Source: Acidimicrobiia bacterium
GTDB lineage: Bacteria > Actinomycetota > Acidimicrobiia > IMCC26256 > JAMXLJ01
Direction of reading: 5' to 3'
DNA: 64,000 bases
Assembly: GCA_035651955.1 (NCBI GenBank)
Contig: DASRES010000001.1
Coordinates: forward strand, 62,001 to 126,000
The notes below the pieces were generated by a model that had not been told where the DNA came from, made no database searches, and was given only the letters and a program-made list of their open reading frames with translations. This document shows, piece after piece, positions 2,545 to 5,925 of the stretch. The position numbers and the translations under genes are program-made. Position 1 is the stretch's first letter; each line of letters opens with the position of its first letter.

Positions 2545-3345
2545 GTGGCGCGCGTACCGCCCGCCTTCGCGGCTGACGACGGCGCGGCGGCGCACGTCTA
2601 CGTCGACGACCTCGCCGACAGCCTGACGGTCGCGGGCGACGACGGGCACCACCTGCAACGCGTCCGTCGCATCCGTACCGGCGAACGCGTCACCGCGGCG
2701 AACGGCACCGGTCGGTGGCGCCCGTACGACGTCACCGCGACGTCGCCCGGCCGAGTGACGTTGGCCGCGTGCGGCGACGAGCGCGAGGAGCCACCGCTGC
2801 TCCCGCCCCTCGCGGTCGCGTTCGGCGTGACGAAGGGCGCGAAGCCCGAGCAGGTCGTCGCGCAGCTCACCGAGCTCGGCGCCGACCGGATCGTCGCCGT
2901 CACGATGGCGCGCTCCGTCGTGCGCCGCGACGACGAGGCGAGCGCTCGCGCCCTCGAACGACTCCGCCGCGCCGCCCGCGAGGCCGGGATGCAGTGCCGG
3001 CGCGCCGTGCTCCCCGCGGTCGACCAGGCGGCTTCGCTCGGAGCGGTGGCGGGCCACCCGGGCCTCGTCGTCGCCGACCGCGGCGGGGTGCCGCTCGCCG
3101 ACCTCCCGGACCCACCCGCCGCGGGATGGCTGATCGTGGTCGGCCCCGAGGGCGGGTTCGACGACGCGGAGCGGCGCCTGACGGCCGGTGCGCCTCGTGT
3201 GGCCGTTGGGCCCCATGTGCTCCGTGCGGCCACGGCGGCGCCCGTCGTGTGCGGGTTGTTCACTTCGCGTCGCGATCGGGGTATGTTCTCGCGCGAATCA
3301 CAGTCGCGATCGCGCGCCGAGCGCGAGAACACCCCATTTCGTTGA
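2545..3345 (+). CDS. rsmE: 16S rRNA (uracil-1498-N3)-methyltransferase RsmE
   Basis: 266 residues from GTG 2545, five bases after the dnaJ stop. An N-terminal PUA-like domain (HHLQRVRR) precedes the SPOUT methyltransferase domain, whose SAM-binding knot carries VGPEGGF and GPHVLRAATA. Known function of the family: methylates U1498 of 16S rRNA in assembled 30S subunits. The last ~25 residues are an Arg/Ser-rich tail not expected in RsmE; the DNA under it is a large inverted repeat (3278-3335), so the tail may be a by-product of regulatory DNA for the next gene. Confidence 0.93.
   Translation: MARVPPAFAADDGAAAHVYVDDLADSLTVAGDDGHHLQRVRRIRTGERVTAANGTGRWRPYDVTATSPGRVTLAACGDEREEPPLLPPLAVAFGVTKGAKPEQVVAQLTELGADRIVAVTMARSVVRRDDEASARALERLRRAAREAGMQCRRAVLPAVDQAASLGAVAGHPGLVVADRGGVPLADLPDPPAAGWLIVVGPEGGFDDAERRLTAGAPRVAVGPHVLRAATAAPVVCGLFTSRRDRGMFSRESQSRSRAERENTPFR
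3278..3335. repeat. Long imperfect inverted repeat before the BldD-like gene
   Basis: Left arm 3278-3294 (GGGGTATGTTCTCGCGC) pairs with right arm 3321-3335 (GCGCGAGAACACCCC). Fifteen base pairs form with a 2-nt AT bulge, around a 26-nt loop that itself contains the palindrome CGCGATCGCG. It sits at the 3' end of rsmE, about 65-120 bp upstream of the BldD-like start. It could be an operator, or an RNA hairpin ending the heat-shock operon; there is no T-tract. Confidence 0.6.
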
Positions 3346-3351
3346 ACTCGC

Positions 3352-3360
3352 TGGTATCCT
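3352..3360 (+). promoter_or_regulatory. Extended -10 promoter for the BldD-like gene
   Basis: TGGTATCCT combines an extended TGn motif with a TANNNT hexamer (3355-3360). The predicted RNA start near 3367 leaves a leader of about 30 nt before ATG 3399. No good -35 is visible. Confidence 0.45.
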
Positions 3361-3398
3361 GCCTCCGGGCGGGTCCGGGCCATGGGGGCGGTCGAAAC

Positions 3399-3881
3399 AT
3401 GAGTGGAACTCGCGTCGGCGAACGGCTGCGGGCGATCCGACGACAGAAGGGCCTGTCGCTCCACGACGTCGAGGCGCGCTCCCAACAGGAGTTCAAGGCC
3501 TCGGTGCTCGGCGCGTACGAACGCGGTGAGCGCGCGATCTCGGTGCCGAGGCTCCTCCGTCTGGCCGAGATCTACGAGGTCCCCGGCGACCAGCTCCTGC
3601 CGCGCGAGCTCGAGATGGAGATCAACCTCACGGACGGTGGCTCCACCTCGATCGACAACGGGTTCACGATCGACCTCGTCGCGCTGCACGCGCTCGACGA
3701 CCCCGACGCCGCTGTCCTGTCGCGCTACGCCGCGACGATCCAGCTCCAACGCCAGGACTTCAACGGCCGGCTGCTGACGATCCGCAGCGACGACATCCGC
3801 GTGCTCGCCGCCGTGCTCGGCCGGCGCCCCGAGGAGCTCGGCACCCGGCTCGAGCAGCTCGGCCTGCGCGCGCGGGCCTGA
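3399..3881 (+). CDS. BldD-like transcriptional regulator with c-di-GMP-binding motif
   Basis: 160 residues. An XRE-type helix-turn-helix occupies about residues 8-62 (LRAIRRQKGLSLHDVE, YERGERAISVPRL). The C-terminal domain has RYAATIQLQ and then R118-Q-D120-(8 residues)-R129-S-D-D132. In Streptomyces BldD the c-di-GMP signature is RxD-x8-RxxD (R114, D116, R125, D128), so every ligand residue and the spacing are kept. BldD dimerises around a c-di-GMP tetramer and represses development genes. I infer a c-di-GMP-sensing repressor; its targets here are unknown. No c-di-GMP synthase or hydrolase is in the window. Confidence 0.87.
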   Translation: MSGTRVGERLRAIRRQKGLSLHDVEARSQQEFKASVLGAYERGERAISVPRLLRLAEIYEVPGDQLLPRELEMEINLTDGGSTSIDNGFTIDLVALHALDDPDAAVLSRYAATIQLQRQDFNGRLLTIRSDDIRVLAAVLGRRPEELGTRLEQLGLRARA

Positions 3882-3918: not shown

Positions 3919-4260
3919 ATGCCCGACTGCCTCTTCTGCTCGATCGCCGCGGGTGACATCCCGTCCGAGCGCGTGCTCGAGACCGACGACGTCGTCGCGT
4001 TCCGCGACGTCAACCCGCAGGCGCCTGTCCACGTCCTCGTCGTCCCGCGCCGGCACGTCGAGGACCTCCACTCGCTCGCGGCCGACGACCCGATCCTCGG
4101 CGAGCTCGTGCGCGCCGCGCAGCAGGTCGCGGAGCAGGCGGGGATCGCCGCGGGCGGCTACCGCGTCGTCGCGAACGTCGGGCCCGACGCCGGCATGAGC
4201 GTCCCGCACCTCCATCTCCACGTGCTCGGCGGCCGGCGGATGGCCTGGCCGCCCGGCTGA
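3919..4260 (+). CDS. HIT family nucleotide-binding protein
   Basis: 113 residues. It begins with CLFCSIAAGDIP, typical of bacterial HIT proteins, and ends with the histidine triad HLHLHVLGG. The family hydrolyses nucleoside phosphoramidates or dinucleotide-type substrates (HinT-like). It sits between the BldD-like gene and phoH, a placement common in actinobacteria. No clear promoter is visible in the 37 nt upstream. Confidence 0.93.
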   Translation: MPDCLFCSIAAGDIPSERVLETDDVVAFRDVNPQAPVHVLVVPRRHVEDLHSLAADDPILGELVRAAQQVAEQAGIAAGGYRVVANVGPDAGMSVPHLHLHVLGGRRMAWPPG

Positions 4261-4304
4261 CGAGCGTGCGTGCGACGGGCCTTCGGTCCGCTCGTGGCGA
4301 CCGC

Positions 4305-4310
4305 TACGCT
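4305..4310 (+). promoter_or_regulatory. phoH -10 element TACGCT, leaderless type
   Basis: TACGCT is separated by 9 nt from GTG 4320. This supports GTG 4320 as the start and a transcript with almost no leader. Confidence 0.5.
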
Positions 4311-4319
4311 GGTCCCGAC

Positions 4320-5282
4320 GTGTCCGCAACCCAGGTCAAGGTGCTCGTCCCGGGGAACCATCTCATGGTCGGTCTCCTCGGCCAGCGGGACGAGCTGCTC
4401 CGCCTGGTCGAGCGCGCGTTCCCGGTGTCGATCCACGTCCGCGGGAACGAGATCACCGTCACCGGCGATCAGGACGAGGCGGAACGCGTCGCGCAGCTGT
4501 TCGAGGAGATGGTCATGCTCCTCGAGCAGGGCCACCACCTGGACCGCGACGGGGTCGGCCGCAGCATCGAGATGCTGAAGGCCGACCAGCGGCCGACCGA
4601 GGTGATGGCGACCGAGGTGCTGCGCGGCCGGAAGTCGATCCGGCCGAAGACGGCGGGCCAGAAGCGCTTCGTCGACGCGGTGCGCGACAACACCGTGACG
4701 TTCGCGATCGGCCCCGCGGGCACCGGCAAGAGCTATCTCGCGGTCGCGCTCGCCGTGCAGGCGCTGCAGGGCAAGCAGGTGAACCGGATCATCCTCACGC
4801 GCCCCGCGGTCGAAGCGGGTGAGCGGCTCGGCTTCCTTCCCGGCGACGTGCTGGCGAAGGTCGATCCGTACCTCCGGCCGCTCTACGACGCGCTCTACGA
4901 CATGCTCGATCCCGAGGCCGTCGCGCGCCTGATGGAGCGCGGCGTGATCGAGGTCGCGCCGCTCGCGTACATGCGCGGCCGCACGCTCAACGACTCGTTC
5001 ATCATCCTCGACGAGGCGCAGAACACGACGCCCGAGCAGATGAAGATGTTCCTGACCCGACTCGGCTTCGGGTCGAAGGTCGTCGTCACCGGCGACGTGA
5101 CCCAGATCGACCTGCCCGACGGTCCGGATCGCAGCGGACTGCGCGAGCTCGAGCAGGTGCTGGACGGCATCCCCGGCCTCGTGTTCGTGCATCTCGGCTC
5201 GCGTGACGTCGTTCGCCACCGGATCGTGCAGGACATCGTCGACGCCTACGCGCGCACGGATCGCGGGCCGTCGAGGACATGA
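4320..5282 (+). CDS. phoH: PhoH-like P-loop ATPase
   Basis: 320 residues. An N-terminal KH-like part is followed by the PhoH ATPase domain, with Walker A GPAGTGKS and Walker [10 protein letters not shown], plus the conserved [12 protein letters not shown]. This is the YbeZ class, commonly paired with YbeY in rRNA maturation and ribosome quality control, and ybeY is the next gene. The GTG start is supported by the TACGCT hexamer 9 nt upstream. The stop codon TGA (5280-5282) is also the first three bases of an intergenic repeat. Confidence 0.94.
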
Positions 5283-5412: not shown

Positions 5413-5925
5413 ATGAGCGTCGACGTCTTCGCGGCGGACGAGCAGCAGGACGTGCCCGTCGACGTCATGCGGTGGGTACGGCTCGCGCGCATGGTCCTCG
5501 ACGAGGAGCAGGTACCGGGCGGCGCGGAGCTGTCGCTCATCTTCGTGGACGAGCGCGCCATGGCCGACCTCAACGAGCGGTTCCTCGGGGGCACGGGCCC
5601 GACCGACGTCCTCGCGTTCCCGATGGACGACGACGTCGTGCCGCCCGGTCGCCAGCCCGACCAGGGCGGCCGGGGCCCGGGGTCGCCGAGCGAGCCCGGT
5701 GAGCCGCCCGCGATGATCGGCGACGTCGTCGTCTGCCCGACATACGCCCGCCGCGAGGCCGAGACCCGCCGGCGTTCGCTCGATGACGAGCTGGCGCTGC
5801 TCGTCGTGCACGGCGTGCTGCACTTGTTGAGCTACGACCACGCCGAGGAGCAGGAGTCCGAGGCGATGCAACGACGCGAGCGCGAGCTCCTCGAGCGGTT
5901 CCGCAGGCTCGAGCAGAGGGGCTGA
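5413..5925 (+). CDS. ybeY: Endoribonuclease YbeY (16S rRNA maturation)
   Basis: 170 residues. The zinc-binding HGVLHLLSYDH (H-x3-H-x5-H) is intact, and the N-terminal half has ADLNERFLGG and DVLAFPM of the UPF0054 family. A Gly/Pro-rich insertion (about residues 77-100) lies between the core strands, which is common in actinobacterial members. It acts in 16S rRNA 3'-end processing and 70S quality control with PhoH-like partners. About 130 bp separate it from phoH, filled by repeat A and a small hairpin. Confidence 0.95.
   Translation: MSVDVFAADEQQDVPVDVMRWVRLARMVLDEEQVPGGAELSLIFVDERAMADLNERFLGGTGPTDVLAFPMDDDVVPPGRQPDQGGRGPGSPSEPGEPPAMIGDVVVCPTYARREAETRRRSLDDELALLVVHGVLHLLSYDHAEEQESEAMQRRERELLERFRRLEQRG

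Follow-up and report, generated by a model that had tools for sequence, protein, structure and literature searches.

Introduction

The closest described counterpart of the regulator considered here is BldD of Streptomyces, through which c-di-GMP governs the timing of spore formation and which has so far been studied as a brake on sporulation. Tschowri et al. (2014; PMC4151990) define RxD-x8-RxxD as its c-di-GMP signature, describe the motif residues as solvent exposed and name five further ligand contacts, Lys84, Ile110, Asn118, Ser123 and Arg130, the first of which is Lys or Arg in all homologues of that paper. The paper also gives the BldD box as TNAC-N5-GTNA and notes that GGDEF proteins are present in those actinomycetes that possess a BldD orthologue. 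bldD itself is among the targets of BldD in S. coelicolor (PMC4255298). The same paper reported in 2013, when no BldD signal was known, a convincing bldD orthologue in Acidimicrobium, took it as a sign of bldD in very early actinobacteria and suggested a stationary-phase role for BldD in simpler actinomycetes. Development in Streptomyces has a further transcriptional switch that responds to c-di-GMP, RsiG-WhiG, and the twin-motif form of RsiG occurs in three of four Acidimicrobiales species (PMC8325347). A literature search, in which papers were judged mostly by title and the start of the abstract, found none on BldD and c-di-GMP in Acidimicrobiia. Here we analyse a bldD-like gene in a 64,000-nt stretch of DNA from an Acidimicrobiia bacterium (the window; all features below lie on its forward strand). 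To our knowledge, sporulation has not been described in this lineage.

Results

A BldD-like protein under purifying selection

The gene runs from ATG to TGA (3399-3881) and encodes 160 residues, as read directly from the open reading frame. Its product consists of a helix-turn-helix (HTH) DNA-binding domain (residues 5-68; 3411-3602), recognised by HTH_3/HTH_31, and a BldD-type C-terminal domain (residues 90-155; 3666-3863), which matches the Pfam family BldD-like_C (PF21179) with an E-value of 4.5e-19, scoring 68.5 bits where the cut-off is 27. In a sequence search the six top solved structures are all BldD; the HTH matches the BldD DNA-binding domain 2ewt (E 1.1e-17), and the sequences of five BldD C-terminal-domain structures match with E 1.2e-10 to 1.7e-9. 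An AlphaFold2 model for which 50 sequences of the window and the class served as input (mean pLDDT 85.3, pTM 0.45, with a low-confidence linker at residues 71-84) agrees with this assignment, the predicted HTH fold superposing on 2ewt with a TMt of 0.88 at 55% identity and the predicted C-terminal domain on 4oaz and 5khd with TMt 0.85-0.88. The first-pass annotation had called a BldD-like regulator at this place, and reading frame, domains and nearest structures all bear it out. Because the protein scores 144.5 bits against the NCBIfam BldD equivalog NF050110, below the curated cut-off of 250, we file it as BldD-like and not as an equivalog.

Comparison with congener G092, in which 155/160 residues are identical, gives a dN/dS of 0.037, indicating that the gene is under purifying selection. 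The closest named relative is a record of an Acidimicrobiia MAG (96% identity), and the copy in IMCC26256, a complete genome of the same order, is 77% identical. For its class, the protein is a typical representative of a family already known. One MAG record with a 74% identical BldD (L373) is titled Bifidobacterium breve; the other records bear titles of Acidimicrobiia or unclassified actinobacteria, and this title is probably a mislabelling.

The signature is kept and one accessory contact is lost

The c-di-GMP signature is read directly as R118-Q-D120 (3750-3758), aligned to RGD of BldD, and R129-S-D-D132 (3783-3794), aligned to RQDD, with exactly eight residues between the two motifs; the variable positions are Q in RQD and S in RSDD, just as first annotated. 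Contact positions in the window protein equal those of Streptomyces BldD plus four, which places Gly88, Ile114, Asn122, Thr127 and Arg134 at the five further contacts. Of the nine published contacts, seven are therefore identical, one is conservatively replaced (Thr127 for Ser123) and Lys84 is lost to Gly88, so that the accessory phosphate contact made by Lys or Arg at position 84 is absent. The earlier statement that all four ligand positions are kept thus holds for R118, D120, R129 and D132 and is over-stated in view of the lost Lys84 contact. We treat the latter as accessory and not defining, as it lies outside the named signature.

Among 135 primary class proteins, the R118 column is R in 134 with one gap, R129 and D132 are each kept in 133 with two gaps and D120 is kept in 121, and this column conservation argues that the motif is not a product of chance. 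Position 88 is K or R in only 38/135 and Gly in 68/135. The C-terminal domain also holds D92, which does not vary at all (135/135).

GGDEF matches accompany BldD in genome, class and phylum

The source genome (G000) comprises 4.1 Mb in 92 contigs and is 96% complete. It yields a single BldD match together with 21 GGDEF matches and 13 EAL matches, the GGDEF and EAL matches all lying over the cut-off; two EAL hits look as if they were adjacent fragments, and 16 of the 21 GGDEF loci contain a [GA]G[DE]EF motif. The first-pass annotation had named a genome wholly without diguanylate cyclase genes as grounds for dropping the idea of c-di-GMP control, and with so many GGDEF and EAL matches that objection falls away.

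Across 198 class genomes, a BldD relative (E <= 1e-5) was found in 135 and a GGDEF match in 152; both occur in 134, GGDEF only in 18, BldD only in one (G075) and neither in 45, a count confounded by genome reduction, since both are missing from the listed members of f21, a family with small genomes. The strict RxD-x8-RxxD is present in 121/134 primary class proteins, a count that leaves out one protein cut by a contig end (L148); eight second copies are kept apart from all primary counts. Sixteen genomes, picked for weak or few GGDEF hits or an odd signature, were checked individually for [GSA]G[DE]EF, and no motif of this type was found in ten of them. The strict signature is kept in 1/10 of these ten compared with 120/124 of the others, where "others" means all genomes outside these ten, only the chosen sixteen having been checked individually. 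The Fisher p-value for this co-loss is 2.4e-10, a figure that ignores relatedness, the losses falling mainly in family f25 plus G075. The correspondence has exceptions on both sides: in G070 (1.9 Mb, ~180 contigs) the signature is retained and no cyclase motif was found, and the signature is lost despite GGDEF matches in G009 (9 matches), G076 (12) and G012 (10) and also in G086, with Asn for Asp in G009 and G076.

In a phylum sample of 396 genomes, 128 are PF21179-positive at E <= 0.001 (126 over the cut-off), and a GGDEF match is present in 128/128 of these versus 215/268 others, again without regard to relatedness. The GGDEF-negative genomes total 53, of which 33 were deduced as numbers missing from the positives; the total closes at 53.

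Most f25 proteins lose the signature and keep the HTH

The strict signature is lost in 9/11 f25 proteins, eight of the nine being from genomes in which no GG[DE]EF motif was found. Within this family, the congeneric genomes G074 and G093, with strong GGDEF matches, keep the signature, and G086, likewise with strong GGDEF matches, has lost it. In G075, a genome that is 98% complete and has no GGDEF match, the BldD-type C-terminal domain is lost altogether and the HTH is conserved (L159). Taking f25 and G075 together, motif or whole domain is lost in 10/12, while the HTH is still 55-72% identical to that of L139 or of the window protein (L001). The CCAC-N5-GTGG palindrome considered below precedes 4/11 f25 genes, two from signature-keeping genomes (L154, L155) and two from signature-losing ones (L153, L168).

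These nine f25 proteins (L153, L158, L164-L166 and L168-L171) lack Asp120 and often have, as judged by eye, a shorter spacer. Recurring frames of 309-367 aa in f25 and f23 (L249-L257, L259-L261, L266) show a partial GGDEF match, spanning model positions 5 to about 88-107, with no GG[DE]EF motif.

A BldD-type palindrome precedes bldD in part of the class

Palindromes formed from 256 half-sites and 11 spacers were screened against shuffled sequences in the 150-nt upstream regions of 132 bldD genes of the class. TCAC-N5-GTGA, a match to the BldD box of Streptomyces, ranked first (13 genes vs 0.27 in shuffles), followed by CCAC-N5-GTGG (14 genes vs 0.70). Counted as one gene per genus, the previously published consensus TNAC-N5-GTNA is present in 10/98 versus 1.77 in shuffles, with 0/300 shuffles reaching 10, and [TC]CAC-N5-GTG[AG], a form picked after the screen, in 26/98 versus 1.32, with 0/300 reaching 26. 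The latter form touches 20 families across all 132 genes and is absent within 150 nt in 72/98 genera; over 200 nt, its 44 sites have a median position of -80.

The same palindrome recurs outside the class, where TCAC-N5-GTGA again ranks first. With f68 set aside, TNAC-N5-GTNA occurs in 20/51 genes versus 1.25 expected and in 8/17 families; the other nine have no TNAC box in 150 nt, and the box-less families include four of the five that share the window's gene neighbourhood. In f68 itself the box is present in 19/19. The window's own bldD has no perfect box nearby. The best position-weight-matrix (PWM) site in its upstream 200 nt (score 4.33) is a weak, degenerate BldD-box-like site, TCACTTCGCGTCG (3260-3272), 139 nt before the start and with one mismatch to TNAC-N5-GTNA; congener G092 has a similar site at -140 (2.58).

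At class loci, no box excess over shuffles was found upstream of hrcA, dnaJ, rsmE, phoH, corC or the HIT gene. Loose boxes were seen within 150 nt upstream of ybeY in 8/79 loci and 5/58 genera, a level reached by 2/300 shuffles; these boxes may fall within the last part of phoH.

A box-based regulon in G000 was considered and set aside. Box-like sites there (156 loose places and 55 of TCAC-N5-GTGA) are not above a dinucleotide expectation scaled from the window. When 50 of these 55 strict places were checked by gene calling with a crude GC-frame method, 34 fell inside called genes and 16 outside, and we claim no targets from them. Some sites lie near pilM-like and universal-stress-like genes, so named by eye from their N-termini only. 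The longer pattern YCACNCWGNGTGR, whose core reportedly goes back to the den Hengst consensus, has 10 places in G000 versus 7 for the reversed control. The GGDEF/EAL loci L002-L030 hold four distinct loose boxes, with no excess seen. A preferred spacing between box and promoter -10 element was likewise set aside as too weak, the best 4-offset window holding 5 of 33 genera compared with at most 4 in shuffles (mean 2.1).

The gene neighbourhood is shared by most of the class

Upstream of the bldD-like gene lie hrcA (393-1406; PF01628), dnaJ (1421-2539; PF01556, PF00226, PF00684) and rsmE, encoding a 16S rRNA methyltransferase (2548-3345, start approximate; PF04452); downstream are genes for a HIT protein (3919-4260; PF01230), phoH (4266-5282, start not settled; PF02562) and ybeY (5413-5925; PF02130). 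Pfam thus confirms each of the neighbours first annotated, hrcA-dnaJ-rsmE on one side and phoH-ybeY on the other. A bldD gene inside a heat-shock/rRNA block is real in this respect and is nothing special to this genome, being common to most of the class: at least one of eight tested window neighbour genes lies near 134/135 primary class loci within the fetched stretch, and the usual class order is hrcA-dnaJ-(rsmE)-bldD-(HIT)-phoH-ybeY. The same order occurs in loci of the other-class families f60, f63, f86, f83 and f56; the 5- to 10-kb loci from f51 (L203, L204, L241), f59, f74, f75, f81, f88 and f103 showed none of the neighbour genes. As the order is common to the class and beyond, the gene owes its place to inheritance at least at the level of the class, and this place tells us little about its function.

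Second BldD-like copies (L108, L114, L151, L157, L160, L162, L163, L172) stand apart from this arrangement, 0/8 having any tested window neighbour gene nearby. A single clade unites six of these copies; L114, L162 and L172 are without the strict signature.

Between the degenerate site and bldD lies a perfect 11-nt inverted repeat, TGTTCTCGCGC / GCGCGAGAACA (3284-3294 and 3321-3331), at the 3' end of the rsmE reading frame, which covers the whole of 3284-3331. RNA of 3275-3345 folds at -31.8 kcal/mol (z -2.81), the repeat has no terminator-like T-run, and by eye a related repeat lies upstream of bldD in congener G092 (L031). A consensus scan of 3150-3450 returned no promoter or terminator, and none was expected either.

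The class is not one clade in the BldD tree

The first-pass annotation had asked whether Acidimicrobiia copies branch deeply. In a BldD tree of 160 rows (L043, L148 and L159 left out), which is unrooted and in which bootstrap support is not settled, the class is not one clade, needing six changes, and f20 groups with other classes; we make no claim of deep branching. The SsgA-like family of sporulation division proteins, PF04686, has no match in the genome, nor in any of the control genomes, so that its absence here carries no weight.

Discussion

Our analysis favours, with a probability of roughly three in four, a reading in which the gene encodes a BldD-type, c-di-GMP-dependent dimerising repressor that in part of the class would act on its own gene. 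Each biochemical step in this reading, from ligand binding through dimerisation and DNA binding to repression, is carried over by analogy with BldD. In this model, a cage of c-di-GMP would, at high concentration, bridge the C-terminal domains of two monomers, held by R118, D120, R129 and D132; the HTH domains of the dimer would then bind a BldD-box-type palindrome and repress transcription, and at low c-di-GMP the protein would return to the monomer and release DNA. The box in 26/98 genera, mostly 60-140 nt before the bldD start, points to bldD as a conserved target and to negative autoregulation in part of the class, the window lineage itself having the degenerate site only.

The lost Lys84 contact leaves room for a regulator that binds c-di-GMP weakly, or reaches only a two-molecule intermediate, and dimerises on DNA or by another route, with c-di-GMP tuning its activity. 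The spread of Gly at this position to half of the class proteins (68/135) fits such a regulator, and D116A C-terminal-domain structures titled as (c-di-GMP)2 intermediates, of which we have the titles only, indicate that partial occupancy exists in the family. We nevertheless consider it unlikely, because the four specifying residues and the equivalents of Ile110, Asn118 and Arg130 are all kept and because signature loss accompanies the absence of a cyclase motif in most of the cases examined. A regulator that is no c-di-GMP sensor at all, its C-terminal motif being kept for folding or protein contacts, is the least probable of the readings weighed here. It would account for G070, and the invariance of D92 does imply that conservation in the C-terminal domain is not for ligand contact only; however, the residues of the motif face the solvent in BldD (PMC4151990), and f25 and G075 lose motif or domain in 10/12 while the HTH persists.

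The gene might instead belong functionally to its surroundings, either the hrcA-dnaJ heat-shock genes or the rsmE/ybeY rRNA-processing genes, and have these as targets. The near-constant presence of at least one window neighbour (134/135 loci) and the loose boxes above shuffles before ybeY speak for this. It seems very improbable all the same, as there is no box excess before hrcA, dnaJ, rsmE or phoH, bldD has a box excess of its own, and several other-class families are without these genes near bldD.

That a relative of BldD is found across a class with no known sporulation suggests a switch that arose before sporulation did. A proposal that we regard as evenly balanced goes further: in this phylum BldD-c-di-GMP could be an ancient switch that represses itself, is older than sporulation, serves some other lifestyle choice, for example motile versus sessile, in deep classes including Acidimicrobiia and has been uncoupled from c-di-GMP at least in f25. 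Flagellar gene clusters are present in 41-91% of species in the basal classes, Acidimicrobiia included (PMC10746217), which makes motility a candidate for the older role of BldD. The interest of the locus lies in the conservation of signature, cyclases and operator beyond the sporulating lineages, together with the apparent uncoupling in f25. Because an intact signature and the same kind of operator occur in a class not known to sporulate, a role of BldD before sporulation is now directly testable, and the boxes of the class are ready DNA probes for binding assays. Lineages without the signature and with no cyclase motif found offer natural variants for studying the evolution of a ligand-independent repressor.

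BldD in Acidimicrobiia, as raised by the first-pass annotation, is upheld here in fold and signature; its occurrence is not new, given the Acidimicrobium orthologue of PMC4255298, for which the passages give no signature, ligand or box. RsiG is a different kind of protein, an anti-sigma factor with the unrelated motif E(X)3S(X)2R(X)3Q(X)3D (PMC8325347). The nearest comparison remains BldD of S. coelicolor and S. venezuelae (PMC4151990), with which the window protein shares its two domains, their folds and RxD-x8-RxxD. It differs from Streptomyces BldD in the replacement of Lys84, and the class box is often CCAC-N5-GTGG. The window protein also comes from a lineage for which we know of no sporulation. 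Its identity to BldD of the f68 locus L174, which compared by eye reads like Streptomyces BldD sequences, is 44%. Relatives of the window gene carry, as in Streptomyces, the same type of palindrome upstream of their own bldD.
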